This document shows positions 41,521 through 55,323 of a stretch of DNA of 64,000 nucleotides, one piece after another. The notes under the pieces were generated by a model. The model made no database searches, had not been told where the DNA came from, and worked only from the letters and a program-made list of their open reading frames with translations. The DNA is taken from the NCBI GenBank assembly GCA_020848545.1, contig JADLHZ010000044.1:1-64000 (forward strand), written 5' to 3'. The stretch is from Deltaproteobacteria bacterium (GTDB lineage Bacteria; Myxococcota; JADLHZ01). The first letter of the stretch is position 1, and each line of letters starts with the position of its first letter. The position numbers were made by a program, and so were the translations under genes.

Positions 41521-42816
41521 ATGCGATCCCTCACCGGCCTGATGCTCCTCTGCGTCTCGTGCACGGCCAGCCCGCCCCGCACCGAGGCGATCATGCGCGA
41601 CCAACGCCTCGCGTGCGCGTTCGCCGCCGGTGCGATGCCGAAAGACACCTTGGGCGAAGACGTGCGCCTCGGCGACAAGATGCCGATCGATCACATCGTG
41701 CTCTTGATGCAGGAGAACCGCTCCTTCGATCACTACTTCTCTCGCTTGGAGGGTGTGCGCACCGTCGGCGACGATCTCCAGCTCACCGGCACCGACGGAC
41801 AGCCGCTACAGCGCGTGCACGAGACCCGCTACTGCGTCGACGACATCAGCCACAATTGGAACGCCGCGCACCGGCAGTGGAACGGCGGCGCCAACGACGG
41901 CTTCGGCCGCGTGCCGGGCAGGAACGATCCGGCGCGCGCGCTCGCCTACTACGACGAGCGCGACATTCCGTATTACTACGCGCTCGCGCGTACCTTCGCG
42001 GTGAGCGACATGCACTTCGCGTCGCTGCTCGGTGGCACTTGGCCGAACCGCATGTTCTACCTGGCCGGCAGCTCGTACGGCGTCATCCGAAACACCATCG
42101 CGCCGGCCGAGGACGCGCGCGGCAATCCGGTGCGGACGATCTTCGAGGCGCTCGACAGCAAGGGCATCGACTTTCGCGTCTATGTCCGCGCCGACGCGCC
42201 GTCGATGCTGCTCTTCTTGCCGACCTACGGGCGCTACGCCGATCGCGTGGTGCCCATGGAGCGCTACTTCAGCGATCTCGCCGACGGGACGCTGCCGCCG
42301 TTTGCCATGGTCGAGCCGGCGTTCATCGGCCAGCACCAAAACGACGAGCACGCGCCGACCAACATCCAGTACGGCCAGCAGTTCACGAGCACCGCCATCA
42401 ACGCCCTCATCGCGTCGCCGTTGTGGCGGCGCTCGGCGCTCTTTTTGTCTTATGACGAGAACGGCGGCTTCTACGACAGCGTGCCGCCGCCGCCCGCGTG
42501 CGCGCCGGACGACGCCCCGGACCTCGAGCCGACGAGCGAGCCCGGCGTCTTCGATCGCCTGGGCTTTCGCGTGCCGATGATCGTCGTCTCGCCCTTCGCG
42601 CGCCGCGGCTTCGTCTCGCACCGCGTGACCGATCACACGAGCCTCCTGCGCTTCGTGGAGGCCCGCTTCTCACTGCCGGCGTTCACCGCGCGCGACGCGA
42701 ACGCCGAGGCGCCCTTCGAGATGTTCGACTTCGAGCATCCTGAGTACGACGTGCCGGCGCTGCCCGAGGCGGTCGTCGATCCCGCGGCCGACGCAGCGTG
42801 TAAGGCGCGGCGCTGA
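41521..42816 (+). CDS. Phospholipase C-type phosphoesterase
   Basis: A 431-residue exported protein of the bacterial phosphoesterase/phospholipase C family (PF04185, acid-phosphatase AcpA relatives). Seen: a signal with LLCVSC, likely a lipobox (Cys14); the metal-binding motif HIVLLMQENRSFDHYFS; then DISHNWNAAHRQWNGG, SDMHFASLLGGTWPNRMF, an acidic FLSYDENGGFYDSVPPP and a C-terminal RVPMIVVSPFARRGFVSH with DHTSLLRFVE. The set of metal ligands appears complete. Substrates may be phospholipids or phosphomonoesters. It is shorter than the two-domain PlcH/PlcN type. The stem-loop at 42820 follows its stop. Confidence 0.92.
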   Translation: MRSLTGLMLLCVSCTASPPRTEAIMRDQRLACAFAAGAMPKDTLGEDVRLGDKMPIDHIVLLMQENRSFDHYFSRLEGVRTVGDDLQLTGTDGQPLQRVHETRYCVDDISHNWNAAHRQWNGGANDGFGRVPGRNDPARALAYYDERDIPYYYALARTFAVSDMHFASLLGGTWPNRMFYLAGSSYGVIRNTIAPAEDARGNPVRTIFEALDSKGIDFRVYVRADAPSMLLFLPTYGRYADRVVPMERYFSDLADGTLPPFAMVEPAFIGQHQNDEHAPTNIQYGQQFTSTAINALIASPLWRRSALFLSYDENGGFYDSVPPPPACAPDDAPDLEPTSEPGVFDRLGFRVPMIVVSPFARRGFVSHRVTDHTSLLRFVEARFSLPAFTARDANAEAPFEMFDFEHPEYDVPALPEAVVDPAADAACKARR

Positions 42817-44770: not shown

Positions 44771-46276
44771 CTACTCCGACAGCCCCAACCAAAGCATCAA
44801 CGCCCCGAACCCCGCCGTCACCGCTGCGCCGGTGATCGCCGCCGTCATCCACAGCTGCCGATCACGCTCCGCTGTCGTTACATCCGCGGGAGCCGCGTCC
44901 TCCCTCGCCCTCAACGCGTCCCACCGCTGCGTCGCCATGATCGCCAAGACCGTGGACAACGCCGTAAATCCGAACGCGGTCCCCGCCACCGTCGCCGCCG
45001 CCGAGAACGCGGCCGGCTTCAGCGACGGATTCATCGCCCGCGGCGGCGTGCTCGCCGGCGCTTGTTTCACGAGCGCCGGCGGTCGCGCGGAAAATCCGCG
45101 GTAGTAGCTCGGGCTGTACGCCGCCTGAAACCATCCGACCTCCAGCGCCGCGAGCAGGCTCCCGCGCGCGACCGGCTCTCCCGCGCTGTCGCCGAGGAGC
45201 GCGAGATCACGCGTCTCTCCCGGCGCGAGCGAGAAGGTGCTTTCACCGCGCGCGTGGCGCAGGTGCAGCGCCCTCGCCGCCGGCACGAACATGCGAAACG
45301 GCCGGAAGCCTTCGACGTGCGCGTCGGCGAGGCGCAGGCCGTCGTCGCGCTCTACGTAAAAGTGGCCGAGCTCGTCGGCTTGCCCGCGCAAGATCGCCAT
45401 GCGCGTGAGCCAGCGATCGTCGACGAGCGGCACGCGCGGATCGGTCGGCGGTGCGCTCACCCGCAGATCGACGCGCGCGCGCGGATCGCTCATGCGGCTG
45501 CGGGCGGACATCACGAAGGCGTAGACCTCGTCGTAGCTCACGCGCCCGTCCTGATCGGCGTCGGCGGCGCCGCTCAACGCGCTCAGCACCTCGTGCGAGA
45601 ACAGGCCTGATTCGACCCGGCTCCATTCGTGCGTCTCGGAGTCGGCGCTCGCGGCGAGCAGCGTGCCGACGTGCGGATACGCCGCGAGCGTCGGCCGGAG
45701 CTCCTGGGCGCCGAGCGCGACGAGCTCGGCGTTCTTCTCGCCGCGCCCCCCGACGACCGCTTCAGCGTGGCACGCGTCGATCACCAAGTGCATGAAGTCC
45801 GCGTCGAGCGCTTGCACGATCTCTTGGTAGAGCAGCATCTGCGTCAGCTTGCCGTCCGCGAGCGTCAGATGCACGACGCCTTCGCTGTCGGAGGCGCCGT
45901 GGCCGCTGTAGGTGAAGAACACGATCGGTGAGTCGCCGCGCCGCCGCGCCTCTGCGATGCTCGTCCGTATCGCAGCGACGGTGCGGCGCAGCTGCGCGAG
46001 CGTGGGCGCCTTCGGCTCGCTGTCGCCGAGGCGCGCCGCTGTCGCCGCGTCCGGGTTCGTCAAGAGCACGCTCGCTTCGGCGAACGGGCGAAAGAACACG
46101 TGGAACTTCAACGCGTCGTCGTCCGCGTAGCGAAGCTCGCGCAAGCCGGAACCTTCTGGCGCCGCGTTGTAGCCGACGTGCAGTGCGTAGACCGCGACCT
46201 TCGCGTCGGCCGCGCGCGCGTAGCCCCAGAGGAGCCCGCAGAGAAGCGCGCAGACGATGGCGGCGGTGCGCCTCAT
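44771..46276 (-). CDS. Exported caspase-like (C14) protease with EF-hand loop
   Basis: A 501-residue protein. Seen: signal peptide or N-terminal anchor (MRRTAAIVCALLCGLLWG), a caspase-fold domain with the catalytic pair His126 (FTYSGHGASD) and Cys169 (VIDACHAEAV), then an EF-hand-type loop DADQDGRVSYDE at 239-250 with acidic residues in the 1, 3, 5 and 12 positions, a beta-rich domain (about 260-390), and two C-terminal TM helices (about 428-450 and 478-498). Some metacaspases and bacterial caspases need Ca2+, so the loop may regulate it. It overlaps the upstream gene by 4 nt (ATGA) and ends a five-gene operon. Confidence 0.86.
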   Translation of the reverse strand: MRRTAAIVCALLCGLLWGYARAADAKVAVYALHVGYNAAPEGSGLRELRYADDDALKFHVFFRPFAEASVLLTNPDAATAARLGDSEPKAPTLAQLRRTVAAIRTSIAEARRRGDSPIVFFTYSGHGASDSEGVVHLTLADGKLTQMLLYQEIVQALDADFMHLVIDACHAEAVVGGRGEKNAELVALGAQELRPTLAAYPHVGTLLAASADSETHEWSRVESGLFSHEVLSALSGAADADQDGRVSYDEVYAFVMSARSRMSDPRARVDLRVSAPPTDPRVPLVDDRWLTRMAILRGQADELGHFYVERDDGLRLADAHVEGFRPFRMFVPAARALHLRHARGESTFSLAPGETRDLALLGDSAGEPVARGSLLAALEVGWFQAAYSPSYYRGFSARPPALVKQAPASTPPRAMNPSLKPAAFSAAATVAGTAFGFTALSTVLAIMATQRWDALRAREDAAPADVTTAERDRQLWMTAAITGAAVTAGFGALMLWLGLSE

Positions 46277-46824
46277 CGCTCTCCGATCGTGACGGCTTGC
46301 TCTCTGATCATGGCCTCGCCAAGGTCCTGCCGCAGGGCTGGCGCCCGTGTAAAGTACGCGCGCACGGTGAGCATCCCTACACGTGTCAGCTTCACGCCCA
46401 TCGGCAAGGTGACGACGCCCGGGCCGAGGCGCGTCGATGGGTCGGCGTCGGTGCGAGGCGTCACCCACTCGACGTCGCCTCCTGGCCACTCGAGCTGCAC
46501 GGCGGTGAACGGGCGGTCGGCCGGGGCTTGCACGTCGATCATCAGCACGGCGCCGTCGGTGCACGGGCCGGCGCAGCGGCCAGCGATCGTCGCTTGCAGC
46601 GGTCCATCGCCGCGTGCGCCGAAGTCGTCGGTTGGCGCCCGTGTGAGCATGAACGCGAGCGCGAGCGTGATGGCGGCGGCCGCCGCGATGAGCCCGCGCG
46701 CAAGGAATGGGACGACCTTCGGATCGCGCGAGAAGCCGAGGCGCTCAGCGATCGCTTCTTTGTCGGCCACCGACAGCTTCTCCGGCGATGCCAGCGCCCG
46801 TCGGACGAGGCGTTCATTGTTCAT
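46273..46824 (-). CDS. Membrane-anchored small protein, possible anti-sigma factor
   Basis: A 183-residue protein. Seen: an N-terminal cytoplasmic part of about 45 residues with helices (ERLVRRALASPEKLSVADKEAIAERLG), one TM helix at about 45-63 (GLIAAAAAITLALAFML), and an extracytoplasmic beta-sheet-like domain (GAVLMIDVQAPADRPF, GVVTLPMGVKLTRVGMLTV). A gene directly after an ECF-like sigma gene with this topology is the usual place for an anti-sigma factor, but no ZAS/HxxxCxxC motif is present, so the role is inferred from position. It overlaps sigma by 11 nt and the caspase gene by 4 nt. Confidence 0.75.
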   Translation of the reverse strand: MNNERLVRRALASPEKLSVADKEAIAERLGFSRDPKVVPFLARGLIAAAAAITLALAFMLTRAPTDDFGARGDGPLQATIAGRCAGPCTDGAVLMIDVQAPADRPFTAVQLEWPGGDVEWVTPRTDADPSTRLGPGVVTLPMGVKLTRVGMLTVRAYFTRAPALRQDLGEAMIREQAVTIGER

Positions 46825-47404
46825 CGTCGTTCTCCTTCTTCCACAGCCCGAGCGTTGCCAGGTGTTCCTTCAGCGCGTGCATGAGCTTGTCGTCGAGCAA
46901 GCGTACGCGCTTGCGCCCGACGCCCATCGCGTTCGCCACGTCCCGCTGCGATTTTTCCTCGTCGTAGCGCAAGCAGACGAAGCGCCGTGTCTCGTCGTCT
47001 TGACCAGCGACGAAGCTCTTGGCTGCGGCGCACAGCTTGGTGGCGAACGGATCCGGCGGCTCGTGCTCGTCGGTGAGGGTCTCGATCGCGGCCGCATCCT
47101 CACGTGGCCGCTCCTTTCGCAAGGTGTCGACGAGCACGTTGCGCGCGAGCTGCAGGAGATAAGGCTCGAGCGGTCGCGAGTCGTCGTAGCTCGTGCGCGC
47201 GGCGGCCGCGAACGCGCGCGCGAACACGTCGTGGACCACGTCGGTCTCGAGATCGCGCCGTGCGAGCCAAGCGCGACGGCCGTCGACGAGCCGCACGCCC
47301 TTCGTGACGATGCGATGCACGGCGTCGATGTGCCGCCAGTACACGGCTTCCAGCGCGGCTTTGTCGCCGCGTTTGTACCCGCGCTGCAGCTCCTCATCGT
47401 TCAC
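46814..47404 (-). CDS. ECF-like RNA polymerase sigma factor
   Basis: A 196-residue sigma-70-family protein without a region 1.1. Seen: a sigma-2 part with RGDKAALEAVYWRHIDAVH and VVHDVFARAFAAA and a sigma-4 part with ETRRFVCLRYDEEKSQRDVA and VGRKRVRLLDDKLMHALKEH, in which the helix-turn-helix is apparent. It probably directs transcription of its own operon and others. The start is GTG at 47404, 7 nt from the upstream stop. ECF sigma genes next to caspase-like proteases are an arrangement I associate with Myxococcota, but the target promoters here are unknown. Confidence 0.87.
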   Translation of the reverse strand: MNDEELQRGYKRGDKAALEAVYWRHIDAVHRIVTKGVRLVDGRRAWLARRDLETDVVHDVFARAFAAAARTSYDDSRPLEPYLLQLARNVLVDTLRKERPREDAAAIETLTDEHEPPDPFATKLCAAAKSFVAGQDDETRRFVCLRYDEEKSQRDVANAMGVGRKRVRLLDDKLMHALKEHLATLGLWKKENDDEQ

Positions 47405-47411
47405 GGTCTCC

Positions 47412-48221
47412 TCAGAGCTTCGGCATCCAACCGAGGGCGACGCCCGGGATCGGCAGCACCGAAACGAAGTTCTTGCGGTCGTCGACAATGAACGGCACGC
47501 CGAAGGTCAGGCTGAGATCGATGAAGAAGCCGCCCTTGTGCATCCACTGCGCACCCACCTCGAACATCATGTTGCCGTATCGATACCCGTTCGACGTGGG
47601 AAGGATCGGCACCATCGGCAGGCGAACGCCGACCGAGATGTAGGGGGTCCACGCGGACGGCAGGATGAACACGCGAAACGCGCCCGCGAGGCTGGCGAGC
47701 GCGACCGCATCCCAATAGAGCGTGAGCTGAATGTGCCGGTGCGGGATGGTGTGCAAGCCGACGCCGACGAGCAACGGACCGGGTCCGCTCACCGAGAAGC
47801 CGAACCAGCGCCGATCGCGGATCCGCGCGGCGGCGAGCGCCGGATCTTCGAGCTTCAACTTGGCGTTCGGATCATCGACCAGCAGATCGCGGGTCGACGC
47901 GCGCTTCTGAAAGCTCGGTTTGTCGGCGAGCGTCGGATCGAGCTCGAGCGCCCGCAGATAATAGAGCCGTTGGCGCGCGTGATCGCCCTGCGCGCCGAGC
48001 TCGTCGCCGATGCGCACGAGCTGCGACGAGAGCAGCGCCCGTGCCTCGGTGTTCTTCGGATCTTGGTAGAGGCCGAGCTCCAGCTGCCGGACGGCGCCAT
48101 AGAGATCGCCCTCGCTCAGCCGCCGATGTGCTTCGCCGATGAAATCGATCGATGCGGCGGGTTGCGACGCCGGCTGCGACGCGGGATCGGCGAGGGCACA
48201 GATCACGATGAAGGTCAGCAT
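47412..48221 (-). CDS. Secreted TPR/outer-membrane-beta-like protein
   Basis: A 269-residue protein with a short N-terminal signal (MLTFIVICALADPA), a Gln/Pro/Ala linker, a TPR-like helical segment at about 30-105 (HRRLSEGDLYGAVRQLELGL, with RALELDPTLADKP), and a C-terminal ~150-residue part made of amphipathic beta strands and aromatic girdle residues (RWFGFSVSGPGPLLVGVGLH, TPYISVGVRLPMVPILP, GAQWMHKGGFFIDLSLTFG) ending in VALGWMPKL. That end resembles an outer-membrane beta-barrel. GAGGAA precedes the ATG at 48221. It overlaps the CSLREAI gene by 7 nt. Confidence 0.76.
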   Translation of the reverse strand: MLTFIVICALADPASQPASQPAASIDFIGEAHRRLSEGDLYGAVRQLELGLYQDPKNTEARALLSSQLVRIGDELGAQGDHARQRLYYLRALELDPTLADKPSFQKRASTRDLLVDDPNAKLKLEDPALAAARIRDRRWFGFSVSGPGPLLVGVGLHTIPHRHIQLTLYWDAVALASLAGAFRVFILPSAWTPYISVGVRLPMVPILPTSNGYRYGNMMFEVGAQWMHKGGFFIDLSLTFGVPFIVDDRKNFVSVLPIPGVALGWMPKL

Positions 48222-50941
48222 GCGCGGTTCCTCCGTGAGCGCAAGGCGATGAGAAGAAGGGTGACCATCCAGAGCGGCGGCGTGTCGGACGCTTGGCAGC
48301 TCCGCACCCACGGCTTGTCGCGGATGGGGTCGCCGCGCCCGAGGATCACGAAGTCTTCCGGCTCGGGATACAAGACGGCGCGCGCCTCGAACTCGGGGAC
48401 GTGCAGCGGGATGGTGTCGAAGGCGAACTGCACGCTCGTTGGGCCGATCCCGTTCGACGTCGCCTCCTCAGCCTTGACGACGATCGTTCCGAGCAACCGG
48501 CCGCCGATCGGAACGTACCCTCTTGGGTAGCTCGAGAGCCTTTGGTCCGGTTCCGCGATGCGCGTCGGTTGCTGCCGCACTTCGTGCAGATCGGCTTCGC
48601 CGTGCAGCGTCAGGTAGAAAGGCGGCACGTTCTCGGGCAGGTCGAACGCGGCTTCGAGTTGGATCGTGGAAGTGCTGTGCTCGGGCTGGCTTCGCAATGA
48701 GATGCGCAGATAGTCCTCGTAGCGCAACGGCTCGGGCAACGTCAGCGGAATAGGCGCGCGCAGTCCCTGGGCAACGACTACGCCGGCGGCGTTGCTGATG
48801 ACGACGTACGACTCAATCACTGCGGTTGACGGGAGCGCTTGCACTTGCCCGACGATCACGAACGTCGCAGCGGCGTCGATCGTCACGCGCGGGCAGCTTT
48901 GGGCGGAGGTCGCGCAATTGAAGCTCATCGAGCTGCCGCCGGCCACGCGAAGCGCGAGGGCGACTCTGTGCCCCTCGGGCGGCGTGGCAGTCAGACTGCA
49001 CTTGAAGTCACGTTGAAAGGCAAAGCGCCGCGTGGCCGAGCAGTCGATCGTGACGCCGATATCGGGTGCGCCGTTCGCGGCCGGCGCGGGCGGGTCGACG
49101 ACCTCGATCGCCTTCGTGATGGCGTTGTTCGCCGCGTTCGGATCGATCGTCTTCGTAGAGCTGTCCGAGGCGCGCGCGGTAGCTGCGGCAGAGAGAGAGG
49201 TGTTCCCGGCGTCGCTGGGTGCCTTGTAGCTGCCTGACACGCAGCGACTTACGCCGGGTCCGAGGCCGATCACCTTGCTTCTCCCGTCGGAGCACGTTCC
49301 GTCCCAAGCGCTTTGCAAGGTGTTCGTTGCGCTCACACAGACCACGGGTGCCGTGTCGGGTCCGTGGTTGTCCACGCACACCCTGAGGGACTTGGTCTCG
49401 CCTTCGATGATCGGCGTGTCGATTTCGAGCCGCACGCCGACATCAGCCTCGAGCGCCGCGAAGGTGACGGTCGCTAATGCGCTGTCGTTCGTGCGGTCGG
49501 TGTTGCCGTACTCTCTGGCCAGCTTCAGCTGGAACGCGGAGGAGCCGGCGCCGAGGCTTTGACTCGTCGCGCTTCTGGTGAAGTGCAGGGTCTCGCCTGG
49601 CGGCACGTCGAAGGGCGTCGTCAAGTTCGGCGGGCAAGCGGCGCCGGCGCTCGCGGCACAGCTCAGCGGTGCGATCCCGCTCGGAAACTGGAGCAGCACT
49701 CCGCTGGCGGTCGCGGCGCCGACCGCGCTCACTTCGAAGGTGAGGTCGTAGGCTTCGCCGAAGCGCACGGGGCCCGTCGGCGCCGAGACGACAGCGATCC
49801 GAGGGTCGACGATCTCCACGTTGTCGAGCGCGCCGGGATCGCAGACGCCGCGCAAGCGGCCGGCGAGATCCGGCTCGGCGCAGCCGTTGAGGATCGGGCT
49901 CACGCTGAGGGTCGCGTCGACGATCGGCGCCGAGGGAGCCGGCGTCGCGAGCGTGGTCGCACGCACGTACTGGCCGTTCAACGTCGCGCGCGCGCCGACC
50001 TGCGCGAGCGGCGTGAAGCGATCGTGCGGGCCAATGGTCGCCGTGAAGCCGCCGACGAAGTCGAGCGCGTTGTAGTCGGCCGAACGAACGAAGCCCGTCG
50101 TGTTCGCCGGCGTGTTGCCGGCGAAGAGGCTCGAGGCCACCCGCATCTGCGTCGAGCCCGCGAGCACGGCGCCGGCGCCTGCCGTGTTCTGCGAGAAGGT
50201 CACGCTGTGGATGTGAGCCGTCGTGCCGATCGCGTAGATCGCGCCGCCGTCGCCGCTCGTCGTCGTGTTCAGGTCGAAGAGGCTCGACATCACGCGCAGA
50301 AGCTGCGCGACGGCGATCATGTGGATCGCGCCACCGTCGTTCGCCGCCGTGTTGTCGACGAAGCTCGAGCGCAGCACGTCGAGCGCGCCGCTCGTGTGGA
50401 TCGCACCGCCGTCGTTCGTGGCGGTGTTTCCTTCGAAGACGGAGTCGGCGACGGCAACGGCGCTCGTCGTCGTGCCCTCGATCGCCGCGCCGTCGCTGGC
50501 AGAGAGATCGGCGAAGACGCACTGGCTGCAGGTGAAGACGCCCGTCGTGTGGATGGCGCCGCCCGGGTTGTTGGCGAAGCGCACTTGAAACGCGTCGAGT
50601 TGGGCGTTCGCCGTCAGCAGCCGCGTTGCCAGCGCGCCCGTGAGCGTCTTGCATCCGCCGGTCAGGACCGTGTGCGCGATGATGTCCGGCAACGGGCTCG
50701 TCACCGCGATCGAGGGGCCCGGCACGTCGTTCAGATCGATCTCGCCGCCAGCGAAGTTCGCGGCCGCGATCGCCTCGCGCAAGGAGCAGTGCGCCGCGTC
50801 GCAGCTCCCGTCGAACACGTCGTCGGCGCTGTTCACTCTAAACGCGAGCGGCGCCCCCGACGGCACCGCGACGCAGTCGAGCGGACCAGCGGCGGCGATG
50901 CGGGCGAGGGCGAACGTCGCGAGCACGAGGAGAGCGCGCAT
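48215..50941 (-). CDS. CSLREAI-type surface protein with parallel beta-helix repeats
   Basis: A 908-residue exported protein. Seen: signal peptide (MRALLVLATFALARIAAAG), the CSLREAI motif at residues 52-58, beta-helix-type repeats with GGAIHTT/GGAIHTS/GGAIHMI/GGAIYAI every 30-40 residues (about 125-260), then a series of Ig-like or DUF11-like beta-sandwich domains (with GEAYDLTFEVSAVG, and CVDNHGPDTAPV), and a C-terminal hydrophobic segment followed by RSRRNRAC. The tail matches the layout of MYXO-CTERM sorting signals (Cys, hydrophobic helix, Arg-rich end), though the usual Gly-Cys pair is not clear. First gene of the caspase operon. Confidence 0.83.
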   Translation of the reverse strand: MRALLVLATFALARIAAAGPLDCVAVPSGAPLAFRVNSADDVFDGSCDAAHCSLREAIAAANFAGGEIDLNDVPGPSIAVTSPLPDIIAHTVLTGGCKTLTGALATRLLTANAQLDAFQVRFANNPGGAIHTTGVFTCSQCVFADLSASDGAAIEGTTTSAVAVADSVFEGNTATNDGGAIHTSGALDVLRSSFVDNTAANDGGAIHMIAVAQLLRVMSSLFDLNTTTSGDGGAIYAIGTTAHIHSVTFSQNTAGAGAVLAGSTQMRVASSLFAGNTPANTTGFVRSADYNALDFVGGFTATIGPHDRFTPLAQVGARATLNGQYVRATTLATPAPSAPIVDATLSVSPILNGCAEPDLAGRLRGVCDPGALDNVEIVDPRIAVVSAPTGPVRFGEAYDLTFEVSAVGAATASGVLLQFPSGIAPLSCAASAGAACPPNLTTPFDVPPGETLHFTRSATSQSLGAGSSAFQLKLAREYGNTDRTNDSALATVTFAALEADVGVRLEIDTPIIEGETKSLRVCVDNHGPDTAPVVCVSATNTLQSAWDGTCSDGRSKVIGLGPGVSRCVSGSYKAPSDAGNTSLSAAATARASDSSTKTIDPNAANNAITKAIEVVDPPAPAANGAPDIGVTIDCSATRRFAFQRDFKCSLTATPPEGHRVALALRVAGGSSMSFNCATSAQSCPRVTIDAAATFVIVGQVQALPSTAVIESYVVISNAAGVVVAQGLRAPIPLTLPEPLRYEDYLRISLRSQPEHSTSTIQLEAAFDLPENVPPFYLTLHGEADLHEVRQQPTRIAEPDQRLSSYPRGYVPIGGRLLGTIVVKAEEATSNGIGPTSVQFAFDTIPLHVPEFEARAVLYPEPEDFVILGRGDPIRDKPWVRSCQASDTPPLWMVTLLLIALRSRRNRAC

Positions 50942-51119
50942 GTTCAAGCACTACGGCCGCGCGAAAAATTTGGGCCCCACGCCTCGCGACGATGTGTGCC
51001 GATGTGTGTGCTACAGGCGAGCGACCCGGTATAAATGTTGTGGGCCACGCCGCGCGCGCTAAATTTCCCTGAGGACCGGCCGTATTTAATAGATATCCAG
51101 AGACGGAGCGCAGAGGCAG

Positions 51120-52823
51120 ATGGCAAGACTCGGCGAGCTACTCGTTCAGAACAACATGATCACGGCTGCGCAGCTGAACCAAGCGCAGGATCAATTGAAG
51201 AAGGACGGCACGCGCCTCGGCACGGCGCTGACCAAGCTCGGCATCCTGCAAGAGCAGGAGTTGATGAGCTTCATGTCGAAGCAGTATCGCGTGCCGGCGA
51301 TCAACCTCTCCGACTTCGAGATCGACACCGACGTCATCAAGCTCATCCCACAGGAAGTGTGCGAGAAGCACATGCTCATCCCGGTGAACCGCGCCGGCGC
51401 GTCGTTGATCGTGTCGATGGCCGACCCCTCGAACATCTTCGCGATCGACGACATCAAGTTCCTCACCAACCTGAACATCGAGGTCGTCGTCGCGCCGGAA
51501 GCGCAGATCAAGAAGGCGATCGAGAAGTACTACGTCAACGCCGGCTCGGCCGCGTCGTACGAAGAGGTGATGGACGGGCTCGACGAGAGCGAGATCGACT
51601 TCAGCGGCGAGGACGAAGGCGAAGTGAACGTCGTCGATCTGGAGAAGAGCGCCGAGGACGCGCCGGTCGTCAAGCTCGTGAACCTGATCCTCATCGACGC
51701 CATGAAGAAAAACGCGTCCGACATTCACGTCGAGCCCTACGAGAAGGAGTTCCGCGTCCGTTACCGCATCGACGGCATGCTCTACGAGATGATGCGGCCG
51801 CCCATGAAATTGCGAAACGCGCTCGTGAGCCGCATCAAGATCATGAGCCAGCTCGACATCTCCGAGCGCCGCTTGCCGCAGGACGGCCGCATCAAGCTGA
51901 AGCTCGGCAAGGGCAAAGAGATGGACTACCGCGTCTCGATCTTGCCGACGCTCTTCGGCGAGAAAGTCGTGCTCCGCCTCCTCGACAAGTCGAACCTCCA
52001 GCTCGACATGACCAAGCTCGGCTTCGAGCAGAAGCAGCTCGAAGAGTTCCTGCACGGCATCCACAAGCCCTACGGCATGGGCCTCGTCACCGGGCCCACG
52101 GGCTCCGGCAAGACGACGACGCTGTATTCAGCGCTCTCAGACCTGAACAAGATCGACAAGAACATCTCGACGGCCGAAGATCCGGTCGAGTTCAACCTGC
52201 CTGGCATCAACCAAGTGCAGATGCACGAAGACATCGGCTTGAACTTCGCAGCCGCGCTGCGCTCGTTCCTCCGCCAAGATCCGAACATCATCATGGTCGG
52301 CGAGGTGCGCGACTTCGAGACCGCCGAGATCGCGATCAAGGCGTCTTTGACCGGCCACTTCGTGCTCTCCACTCTGCACACGAACGACGCGCCGTCGACG
52401 GTGACGCGCCTCTTGAACATGGGCATCGAGCCCTTCTTGGTGACGGCGTCGCTGAACGTCATCGTCGCGCAGCGTTTGGCGCGCAAGATCTGCAAGGACT
52501 GCAAGGCCGAGGTCGAGGTGCCTCCGGCCACGCTGAAGGACATTCAGGTGCCCGCGGCGCAGATCGGCAAGTTCGCGACCTTCAAGGGCAAGGGCTGCGC
52601 GAACTGCTCGAACACCGGCTACAAAGGCCGCGTCGCGGTGTACGAAGTGATGACCTTCGCCGATCCGCTGAAGGAGGTCGTGTTGAACGGCGCCGCCGCC
52701 AGCGATTTGAAGCCGACGGCGATCAAGCACGGCATGCAGACCTTGCGCATGTCGGCGAACAAGAAGCTGATGGAAGGCGTGACGACGGTCGAAGAGGTCG
52801 TGCGTATTTCGATCGCAGATTGA
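51120..52823 (+). CDS. pilB: Type IV pilus extension ATPase PilB
   Basis: A 567-residue secretion-ATPase-family motor that powers pilus extension. Seen: an N-terminal MshEN-like region (GELLVQNNMITAAQLNQA, IPQEVCEKHMLIPVN), the T2SSE core with Walker A GPTGSGKTTT at about 325-334, the Asp box TAEDPVEFNLPGINQ, Walker B IIMVGEVRDFETAE at about 389-402, the His box STLHTNDAP, and the tetracysteine zinc motif CKDC...CANC (about 456-496). All catalytic boxes are intact. It starts a cluster with pilT, pilC, pilS and pilR in the order known from Myxococcus xanthus. Confidence 0.97.
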   Translation: MARLGELLVQNNMITAAQLNQAQDQLKKDGTRLGTALTKLGILQEQELMSFMSKQYRVPAINLSDFEIDTDVIKLIPQEVCEKHMLIPVNRAGASLIVSMADPSNIFAIDDIKFLTNLNIEVVVAPEAQIKKAIEKYYVNAGSAASYEEVMDGLDESEIDFSGEDEGEVNVVDLEKSAEDAPVVKLVNLILIDAMKKNASDIHVEPYEKEFRVRYRIDGMLYEMMRPPMKLRNALVSRIKIMSQLDISERRLPQDGRIKLKLGKGKEMDYRVSILPTLFGEKVVLRLLDKSNLQLDMTKLGFEQKQLEEFLHGIHKPYGMGLVTGPTGSGKTTTLYSALSDLNKIDKNISTAEDPVEFNLPGINQVQMHEDIGLNFAAALRSFLRQDPNIIMVGEVRDFETAEIAIKASLTGHFVLSTLHTNDAPSTVTRLLNMGIEPFLVTASLNVIVAQRLARKICKDCKAEVEVPPATLKDIQVPAAQIGKFATFKGKGCANCSNTGYKGRVAVYEVMTFADPLKEVVLNGAAASDLKPTAIKHGMQTLRMSANKKLMEGVTTVEEVVRISIAD

Positions 52824-52849
52824 ATGGCGAGACTGCAATCGCGGATTGA
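52811..52849. repeat. Short duplication spanning pilB stop
   Basis: The end of pilB, ATCGCAGATTGA (52812-52823), is repeated 26 bp later as ATCGCGGATTGA (52838-52849) in the pilB-pilT gap. It looks like a small local duplication that left the pilB stop intact and a second in-line stop downstream. It has no evident function. Confidence 0.6.
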
Positions 52850-52864
52850 TAGGAGTCCCTCTCG

Positions 52865-54004
52865 ATGACCGACGGCGCCCCGCTCCCGACCGGCAACACG
52901 CAACCGCAGGCGATCTCGCTGCACCAGCTCTTGAAGGTGATGGTCGAGAAGGGCGCGAGCGACATGCACATCACGACCGGCACCGCGCCGCAGCTGCGCA
53001 TCGACGGCGAGCTCGTGCCGCTGAAGACGAACCCGATGTCACCGACCGAGACGAAGCAGCTCTGCTATTCGATCTTGACCGACGCGCAGAAGCACAAGTT
53101 CGAGGAAGAGAACGAGCTCGACCTCTCGTTCGCGGTGAAGGGCCTCTCGCGCTTTCGTGCGAACATCTACATGCAGCGCGGCGCCGTGGCGGCGGCGTTT
53201 CGTACCATTCCGTTCAAGATCCTGAGCTGCCAAGAGCTGAACCTGCCGCAGACGATCTCCGACTTGACGAACAAGCCGCGCGGGCTCGTGCTCGTCACCG
53301 GGCCGACCGGCTCCGGCAAGACGACGACGCTCGCGGCGCTCATCGACAAGCTGAACCAGGAGATGCACGGGCACATCCTGACGATCGAAGACCCGATCGA
53401 GTACCTGCACCCGCACAAGAACAGCGTCGTCAACCAACGCGAGGTCGGCGCCGACACCCAGTCGTTCAAGCGCGCGCTGAAGTACGTCTTGCGCCAGGAT
53501 CCTGACGTCGTCCTGGTCGGTGAAATGCGCGACCTCGAGACGATCGAGGCGGCGATGACCATCTCCGAGACGGGCCACCTGTGCTTCGGCACGCTGCACA
53601 CGAACTCGGCGGTGCAGACGATCAACCGCATCATCGACGTGTTCCCGGCGCACAGCCAGCCGCAGGTACGCGCCCAATTGTCCTTTTCGCTGGAAGCGGT
53701 CGTATCCCAAATTCTCTTGCCGAAGATCGGCGGCGGCCGCTGCATCGCCGTCGAGGTGATGATCCCGAACGCCGCGATCCGCAACCTCATCCGCGAAGAC
53801 AAGATCCACCAGCTCTACTCGCAGATGCAGGTCGGCCAGTCGAAGTTCGGCATGCAGACGATGAACCAGTCGCTCGCGCAGTTGGCGCAGAAGCGGATCA
53901 TCTCGCCGGAAGTCGCGTACAATGCGTCGAGCGATCCGGACGAGCTGCGGAACATCATGAGCGGCGGCGCCCCGAGCGGCGGACCGCCGAGGAGACCGGC
54001 TTAG
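52865..54004 (+). CDS. pilT: Type IV pilus retraction ATPase PilT
   Basis: A 379-residue hexameric ATPase for pilus retraction. Seen: LHQLLKVMVEKGASDMHITTG at the N-terminus (split: the SDMHI motif is diagnostic), Walker A GPTGSGKTTT at about 146-155, the Asp box ILTIEDPIEYLH, Walker B VVLVGEMRDLETIEAAMT at about 215-232, the His box TLHTNSAVQTI, and the PilT-typical AIRNLIREDKIHQLYSQMQ near the C-terminus. GGAG lies 9 nt before the ATG. Retraction supports twitching motility. Confidence 0.97.
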   Translation: MTDGAPLPTGNTQPQAISLHQLLKVMVEKGASDMHITTGTAPQLRIDGELVPLKTNPMSPTETKQLCYSILTDAQKHKFEEENELDLSFAVKGLSRFRANIYMQRGAVAAAFRTIPFKILSCQELNLPQTISDLTNKPRGLVLVTGPTGSGKTTTLAALIDKLNQEMHGHILTIEDPIEYLHPHKNSVVNQREVGADTQSFKRALKYVLRQDPDVVLVGEMRDLETIEAAMTISETGHLCFGTLHTNSAVQTINRIIDVFPAHSQPQVRAQLSFSLEAVVSQILLPKIGGGRCIAVEVMIPNAAIRNLIREDKIHQLYSQMQVGQSKFGMQTMNQSLAQLAQKRIISPEVAYNASSDPDELRNIMSGGAPSGGPPRRPA

Positions 54005-54114
54005 TCGTGCGATGCGAATAGGCGACTCGGTCGCCAAGGATGAAGCTGGCCAGCTGATGCGATAAAATGTCTTTTCCGCATCGCGGCAGCTGGCAAGCGA
54101 TAGGAGACGAAGCG

Positions 54115-55323
54115 ATGCCTGCATTCATTTGGGAAGCGCGGACGCGTGCCGGTGAGGTGAAGAATGGCACGATGGTCGCCGACACCATCGAGGCAGTGCA
54201 GCAACGCCTGAGACAACAGTCGCTGCAGCCGCAGTCGGTGAAGAAGCAGCCGCTCCAGATCAAGCTGAAGCTCCCGCAGTTCGGCAGCGGCGTGTCGAGC
54301 AAAGACCTCGTGCTCTTCACCCGTCAATTCTCGACGATGATCGACGCCGGCCTGCCGCTCGTGCAGTGCCTCGACATCTTGGGCAACCAGAACGACAACC
54401 CGGCGTTCAAGAAGGTGCTGCTCGACCTGAAGTCGACGGTCGAGACAGGCACCACCTTCGCCGAAGCGCTGAAGAAGCACCCGAAGGTCTTCGACACGCT
54501 CTTCGTCAACCTCGTCGCCGCCGGCGAGACGGGCGGTATCCTCGACACGATCATGAACCGCTTGAGCGCGTACATCGAGAAGAACATCAAGCTCGTGAAG
54601 CAGATCAAAGGCGCGATGACTTACCCCTTGGTCGTCTTGAGCGTGTCGTTCGCGGTCGTGTCGGTCTTGTTGCTCTTCGTCATCCCCACCTTCGAGAAGA
54701 TGTTCAAGGACATGGGCGGGACCTTGCCGGGTCTCACCCAGGGGCTCATCGACATCTCGCAGTGGCTGCAGGCGTGGGCGATCTTCATCTTCCCGGCGAT
54801 CGCGGCGATCGTCGTGGCGGGCATTCGCTTCAAGCAGACGAAGCGCGGCACCGAGATCTTCGATAAGACCATTCTAAAGGCGCCCGTGTTCGGCGACATC
54901 GTGCGCAAGGTGGCCGTCGCGCGCTTCACGAGCACGATGGGCACGATGCTCTCGTCGGGCGTGCCGATCTTGGACAGCTTGGACATCGTCGCACGCTCGG
55001 CGGGCAACACGGTCGTCGAGCAGGGCATCCTCTTCGTCCGCGCCAAGATCAGCGAAGGTAAGACGATGGCGCAGCCGCTCGCCGACACCAAAATCTTCCC
55101 GCCGATGGTCGTGCAGATGATCGCCGTCGGCGAGTCGACCGGCGCGCTCGACAAGATGCTGACGAAGATCGCCGACTTCTACGAAGAAGAGGTCGACGAA
55201 GCCGTCGCGGCGATGACCTCGCTCATCGAGCCGTTCATGATGGTGTTCTTGGGCGGCCTCCTCGGCACGATGATGATCGCGATGTACCTGCCGATCTTCA
55301 CCATGGCCGGCTCGCTCAAGTGA
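54115..55323 (+). CDS. pilC: Type IV pilus inner-membrane platform protein PilC
   Basis: A 402-residue platform protein of the GspF family. Seen: an N-terminal cytoplasmic domain ending LVLFTRQFSTMIDAGLPLVQ, the first GspF repeat, a TM helix (about 170-195), the second repeat with TLGTMLSSGVPILDSL-like text (FTSTMGTMLSSGVPILDS), and C-terminal LIEPFMMVFLGGLLGTMMIAMYLPIF. Two GspF repeats with three TM helices are complete. The ATG at 54115 has GGAG 9 nt upstream; the 110-bp gap after pilT has no gene. Confidence 0.96.
   Translation: MPAFIWEARTRAGEVKNGTMVADTIEAVQQRLRQQSLQPQSVKKQPLQIKLKLPQFGSGVSSKDLVLFTRQFSTMIDAGLPLVQCLDILGNQNDNPAFKKVLLDLKSTVETGTTFAEALKKHPKVFDTLFVNLVAAGETGGILDTIMNRLSAYIEKNIKLVKQIKGAMTYPLVVLSVSFAVVSVLLLFVIPTFEKMFKDMGGTLPGLTQGLIDISQWLQAWAIFIFPAIAAIVVAGIRFKQTKRGTEIFDKTILKAPVFGDIVRKVAVARFTSTMGTMLSSGVPILDSLDIVARSAGNTVVEQGILFVRAKISEGKTMAQPLADTKIFPPMVVQMIAVGESTGALDKMLTKIADFYEEEVDEAVAAMTSLIEPFMMVFLGGLLGTMMIAMYLPIFTMAGSLK

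Follow-up and report, generated by a model that had tools for sequence, protein, structure and literature searches.

The RseA-DegS-RseP and RsiW-PrsW-RasP systems resemble the locus described here in combining an ECF sigma factor, a single-transmembrane (TM) anti-sigma factor, a periplasmic site-1 cut, which in our case is proposed, and an M50 protease in the genome. Known site-1 enzymes are a serine protease (DegS), a metalloprotease (PrsW) or signal peptidase, whereas here a caspase-fold cysteine protease is encoded beside each anti-sigma factor, with a proposed role comparable to that of DegS for RseA. Among proven cases, the type III-E CRISPR system (Csx29, Csx30, CASP-sigma) comes closest: its caspase-like protease Csx29 cleaves Csx30, which inhibits an ECF-like sigma factor (PMC10028731). 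A cut of that kind is what we propose below; however, the CRISPR system is cytoplasmic, RNA-activated and tied to Cas7-11, and Csx30 does not belong to the present family of TM anti-sigma factors. Gene context has also led to a proposal of proteolytic control for ECF54-type sigma factors that neighbor CHAT or protease genes (PMC8999054), although there the action was proposed without an anti-sigma factor.

Operons of sigma-70 and metacaspase genes were reported in 2012 from Myxococcus, Anaeromyxobacter, Haliangium and Sorangium, with a suggested role in cell death (PMC3501461). As described in the available part of that report, they are very probably the same type of gene cluster as genes 3 to 5 below, and the same part makes no mention of an anti-sigma factor, export, a cleavage motif or linked exported genes. 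Sigma-metacaspase operons have thus been known since 2012; relative to the available text, what is new here is the anti-sigma identity of the middle gene and a MALT1-like motif in its linker. Neither was found described in the freely accessible literature covered; the large ECF classification (10.1093/nar/gkaa1229) may mention the group. With the paracaspase MALT1 and the metacaspases (C14B), the product of gene 5 shares the caspase fold, the His/Cys dyad and an acidic alpha1 residue, and its candidate substrate motif fits the preferences of MALT1, whereas it differs in being bacterial, exported, probably membrane-anchored and equipped with an EF-hand loop, its specificity being predicted.

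Identity of the five gene products

The window, a stretch of 64,000 nucleotides from a Deltaproteobacteria bacterium (contig JADLHZ010000044.1), carries the five genes of the locus on its minus strand (Table 1). Their frames and overlaps are real: the junctions given in the earlier note were confirmed as a 7-nt overlap of genes 1 and 2 (ATGCTGA), a 7-nt gap between genes 2 and 3, an 11-nt overlap of genes 3 and 4 and a 4-nt overlap of genes 4 and 5, and a codon-usage gene caller returned exactly the same five genes.

Table 1 Features of the five-gene locus, with positions in the window
Feature	Position	Strand	Remarks
Five-gene locus	44771..50941	-	
Gene 1, exported surface protein	48215..50941	-	908 aa
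CSLREA domain, gene 1 residues 34-62	50756..50842	-	TIGR04214, 36.9 bits, cut-off 25
Gene 2, TPR-like with C-terminal barrel-like domain (read from sequence)	47412..48221	-	269 aa
Barrel-like domain, gene 2 residues 133-269	47415..47825	-	Related to C-terminus of caspase paralogue G000:C118
Gene 3, ECF-type sigma factor	46814..47404	-	196 aa, GTG start
Gene 4, predicted single-TM anti-sigma factor, short zinc-less form	46273..46824	-	183 aa
TM helix, gene 4 residues 40-60	46645..46707	-	AlphaFold2 model, hydropathy
Candidate caspase cleavage motif F68-G-A-R71|G72, gene 4	46609..46623	-	Linker between TM helix and outer beta-sandwich
Gene 5, exported caspase, peptidase C14, probable C-terminal membrane hairpin	44771..46276	-	501 aa
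D52-D53-D54, gene 5, start of helix alpha1	46115..46123	-	Invariant in 51/51 homologues; candidate S1-pocket acids for Arg/Lys
Catalytic His126, gene 5	45899..45901	-	51/51 homologues
Catalytic Cys169, gene 5	45770..45772	-	51/51 homologues
EF-hand loop DADQDGRVSYDE, gene 5 residues 239-250	45527..45562	-	Canonical in 55/57 homologues
C-terminal helical hairpin, gene 5 residues 417-496	44789..45028	-	Structure model; probable membrane anchor

Gene 1 is laid out as a signal peptide, a CSLREA domain, three Chlamydia-type PMP repeats above threshold, a DUF11-like region and a C-terminal hydrophobic segment followed by arginines. Its earlier description as a CSLREA/MYXO-CTERM-like surface protein stands for the CSLREA part, but the C-terminus scores 12.1 bits for MYXO-CTERM (TIGR03382), below the cut-off of 15.85. 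The description of gene 2 as a TPR/barrel protein is borne out in that the gene is present, but the TPR match is weak (E 0.011) and its C-terminus is barrel-like on our reading of the sequence. This domain matches residues 432-588 of the 590 residues of the caspase paralogue G000:C118 at 32% identity (E 6e-14), within the open frame of that caspase; the paralogue's C-terminal domain is one of only two relatives of gene 2 in its own genome, both distant.

The product of gene 3, read earlier as an ECF-like sigma factor, is an ECF-type sigma factor, with Sigma70_r2 and Sigma70_r4 above the Pfam cut-offs and sigma70-ECF TIGR02937 above its own. Gene 4 alone gave zero matches in Pfam or NCBIfam, being too divergent and without a Pfam model. 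The profile of its family (48 members) gave RsiW (E 2e-6), RslA (3e-4), DdvA (4e-4) and ChrR (2e-3) as its five best PDB matches, and this single-TM protein, previously noted for its anti-sigma position, is thereby assigned by sequence to an anti-sigma factor family. An Hx3Cx2C zinc motif occurs in 25 of 49 gene 4 homologues (the long form) and a zf-HC2 match in 5 of 24. Of the features of class I anti-sigma factors (ASD/ZAS), the sequence relation to solved anti-sigma factors is present for the family, and the zinc motif is absent from the short-form gene 4 of the window. Its cytoplasmic part, about 39 residues with two helices, is one that we take to resemble class II anti-sigma factors. Anti-sigma domains that lack zinc are common (PMC7406223). 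In the AlphaFold2 model (mean pLDDT 82), helices predicted at residues 3-12 and 19-28 are followed by the TM helix, an unstructured linker and a beta-sandwich; this outer domain gave weak Ig/FN3-like structural matches (Z below 8) that are uninformative on function. Gene 4 may bind and inhibit gene 3, to which it is tied by adjacency and co-divergence; given its small cytoplasmic part and the missing zinc motif, we are less sure of such binding here than in the long forms.

The Peptidase_C14 match of gene 5 (PF00656) reaches 32.3 bits against a cut-off of 21.4. Its earlier reading as an exported caspase with a His126/Cys169 dyad and an EF-hand loop was confirmed: the dyad is invariant in 51 of 51 homologues, together with the loop residues D239 and E250 and the E217-W218 pair, the family profile matches solved EF-hands, and 52 of 57 homologues scored positive for a signal peptide. 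For the EACC1-associated caspase family (NF047832), the score was 37.2 bits against a cut-off of 140. A Foldseek search with the caspase model returned MALT1 first, then Arabidopsis metacaspase-9 and Trypanosoma brucei metacaspase 2. Metacaspases and paracaspases cleave after Arg or Lys, and an acidic residue on alpha1 forms the P1 arginine pocket in MALT1 (Asp365) and TbMCA2 (Asp95) (PMC4357240). The invariant DDD of the gene 5 family sits at this site, making gene 5 a candidate for the Arg/Lys specificity of C14B. The modeled C-terminal hairpin is probably a membrane anchor, and the caspase and the outer domain of the anti-sigma factor are predicted to face the same compartment, the comparison that the earlier note had proposed. 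In one homologue (L095), the C-terminus is instead a long stretch resembling an outer-membrane barrel with a terminal Phe.

A three-gene unit with variable exported neighbors

In order to follow the locus across genomes, we compared 57 genomes, all of the same phylum as the genome of the window, with no close relative of the latter in the searched set. A contig search of a named collection gave no matches with a single-protein query and 80 loci with an alignment of six; the matching contigs were labeled Myxococcota or Deltaproteobacteria and came from MAGs and a few isolates. About 60 loci from the compared genomes and the 80 named loci were taken, and their genes were called by a codon-usage script and labeled with iterated HMMs.

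Gene 5 homologues were found in 42 of 58 genomes and gene 4 profile matches in 45 of 58. Among the 74 caspase genes of the 80 named loci, 59 had a sigma gene no more than five genes upstream, 62 a gene 4 homologue and 51 both, and the anti-sigma/caspase junction was usually a 4-nt overlap (35 cases). A sigma gene, an anti-sigma gene or both lay near the caspase in 123 of 133 non-redundant caspase loci; conversely, 113 of 114 anti-sigma-family matches were no more than two genes away from a caspase or sigma gene, and a caspase proved to be present in 15 of 20 anti-sigma loci chosen for having none listed nearby. Distances among same-genome paralogues also correlated, at r=0.53 for caspase and anti-sigma factor (null 0.06; p=0.0005), r=0.72 for caspase and sigma factor (null 0.02; p=0.0005) and r 0.52-0.72 across the three proteins (within-genome permutation, p=0.0005). 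The shared loci and correlated divergence indicate that the three genes are inherited as a unit, of which genes 3 to 5 are one copy and which is spread across the Myxococcota. The caspase gene is divergently transcribed or alone in a few loci (L056, L059, L047). The last of these (G000:C26) holds an orphan caspase of the family with neither a sigma nor an anti-sigma neighbor. An apparent sigma/anti-sigma fusion (L146) was set aside, its sigma part being truncated, probably through a frameshift in a draft assembly.

The gene order therefore has synteny in Myxococcota for genes 3 to 5 but not for genes 1 and 2. The surface and barrel genes of the window are not conserved partners of the module: neither family adjoins other modules, and no second copy of gene 1 was found in its own genome. 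The fixed link to a surface protein and barrel that the earlier note had singled out does not hold, and of its path from surface to membrane to transcription there remain the sigma factor, the membrane anti-sigma factor and the exported caspase with its calcium-type loop. Exported neighbors as such are common, however: in 41 of 85 cases (48%), the first linked non-core gene is predicted to encode a lipoprotein, versus 142 of 1065 background genes (13%; p=2e-13), and the exported proteins linked to modules belong to many unrelated families. This enrichment across many families indicates that linkage to some exported protein characterizes the class, while the protein itself varies. In L046, a paralogous locus of the same genome, the gene immediately before the sigma gene ends, like gene 1, in a hydrophobic segment and arginines. 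A recurring lipoprotein family with a GDFSNDDLEF-like start lies directly downstream in L202, L204, L205, L207, L210 and L213, a set that belongs to a second, more distant sigma/anti-sigma/caspase group.

Candidate cleavage motif in the anti-sigma linker

Just outside the membrane, caspase-linked anti-sigma factors carry the consensus [FLW]-x-[ASPV]-[RK]-[GSA]. The pattern counted, [FLWYMVI]x[ASPVTIL][RK][GSA] within the 33 residues after the membrane, was present in 89 of 108 such proteins versus 12% of shuffled linkers (1000 shuffles, maximum 25%). It was written after the first 24 sequences had been seen; among the remaining 84 proteins, from loci whose anti-sigma factor was outside the first alignment, 68 contained it. 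Elsewhere in these proteins, 33-residue stretches matched at 7-18%, and same-phylum zinc-finger anti-sigma factors without an adjacent caspase did so in 3 of 14 cases (Fisher p=8e-6). Position P1 was R in 84 and K in 23, P1' was G in 83, S in 16 and A in 8, P4 was mainly F/L/W and P2 mainly A/P/V/S. MALT1 accepts Arg at P1 and Ser, Ala or Pro at P2, and its P1' residue must be Gly (PMC6207715), a published specificity that the linker motif matches at the sequence level. The second, more distant module set shows R-[I/L/T/M]-K-G at the same place.

In the AlphaFold2 model of gene 4, the linker holding the motif has low confidence and no secondary structure. It offers a candidate cut site in one member of the operon, as the suggestion that the protease could cut such a member had anticipated; further R/K-G/S/A sites besides R71 occur in the same protein. 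The distance of the motif from the membrane varies among homologues, which favors a linear recognition site over a packing element. The motif is also kept where no intact caspase is adjacent (L196, L211, L214 and L218), so the site may belong to a different protease, have a structural function or be cleaved in trans.

Two of these arrangements deserve description. In L196 (G000:C140), the sigma/anti-sigma pair is followed by two lipoprotein genes, the caspase is absent, and the anti-sigma factor, perhaps cut in trans, keeps FGVRS. At a locus upstream of a dnaN-like gene, L219 encodes a 769-aa caspase, and L214 and L218 have in its stead a 202-aa exported protein with 46-48% identity to the last 151 residues, the barrel-like end, of that caspase; the protease part is lost, and the sigma/anti-sigma pair and motif are retained.

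Proposed mechanism and alternatives

The MALT1-like Arg/Lys motif in nearly all caspase-linked anti-sigma factors suggests that the caspase acts as a sigma-factor switch. We propose, with a probability of roughly 0.6, that it is the dedicated site-1 protease of its anti-sigma factor, starting the destruction of the latter and freeing the sigma factor. In the resting cell, gene 4 would hold the sigma factor of gene 3 through the two helices of its short cytoplasmic part and present its beta-sandwich to the periplasm, where the exported gene 5 protein would be anchored through its C-terminal hairpin. Upon a trigger, perhaps Ca2+ at the EF-hand loop or a partner, the active caspase would cut gene 4 after R71 in the exposed linker (site 1), and a site-2 protease of the M50 type, of which the genome has clear copies, would together with cytoplasmic proteases remove the remainder. 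As a general statement, that Myxococcota employ caspases in the periplasm as site-1 proteases dedicated to ECF anti-sigma factors, with several in each genome and a MALT1-like specificity ([F/L/W]-x-[A/P/S/V]-R|G), seems to us slightly better than an even bet.

The function of bacterial caspase homologues is mostly obscure, and a large named set of caspases now has a proposed substrate, with a proposed scissile bond in the window (R71|G72) and a simple readout in sigma-dependent transcription. If the proposal is true, a class of cysteine proteases joins the site-1 proteases of ECF signaling, paracaspase-like specificity serves bacterial signaling, and inhibitor cutting by a caspase fold is an everyday bacterial envelope mechanism rather than mainly a tool of cell death or CRISPR. 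It would also provide a handle on many ECF sigma factors of myxobacteria.

The caspase could instead be an output, the sigma/anti-sigma pair governing a protease that breaks down other proteins in the periplasm or contributes to cell death while a different site-1 protease cuts the anti-sigma factor. Caspases are numerous in the genome (17 PF00656 matches), some stand apart from a sigma/anti-sigma pair, some anti-sigma factors retain the motif without an adjacent caspase, and the available part of the 2012 report suggests that metacaspases of myxobacteria serve lysis in developmental cell death (PMC3501461). A death enzyme alone, however, leaves unexplained both the paracaspase-type linker motif and the co-divergence of one caspase with each anti-sigma paralogue in a genome, and we consider this explanation unlikely, though by no means negligible. 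Retention of the motif in the four loci that lack an intact adjacent caspase would also fit a structural element or a site for another, housekeeping protease, with the gene association reflecting co-regulation only; since the linker is predicted to be disordered, the membrane distance varies and most same-phylum zinc-finger anti-sigma factors lack the motif, this appears improbable. We give still less credence to a role of the caspase in maturing the linked exported lipoproteins or surface proteins, with the anti-sigma factor sensing the cleaved product or assembly state. The lipoprotein-rich neighborhood, the surface and barrel genes within the operon of the window and the fusion of a barrel-domain relative to a caspase paralogue are in keeping with it, but the linked proteins come from many unrelated families, and motif matches in the surface protein of the window are near chance (5 found versus 3 expected).

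If the caspase is the site-1 protease, the freed sigma factor would probably activate the operon that encodes it together with the linked exported product, which in this locus means the CSLREA surface protein plus the barrel-like one. An ECF-type -35/-10 pair, suggested earlier as a feature to look for upstream of 50941, was not identified: no shared bipartite ECF motif exceeded shuffles upstream of the sigma genes or of 50941, and a search for a sigma-70-like promoter site also found none. The 178-bp divergent intergenic region there (window 50942-51119) is common to the operon and a pilB-pilT-pilC-like cluster (type IV pilus assembly) within 51120-55323, which is followed by sensor-kinase-like and response-regulator-like genes. 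The window also encodes, at 41521-42816, an exported enzyme of the phosphoesterase family (PF04185, E 1.8e-77) that resembles phospholipase C.
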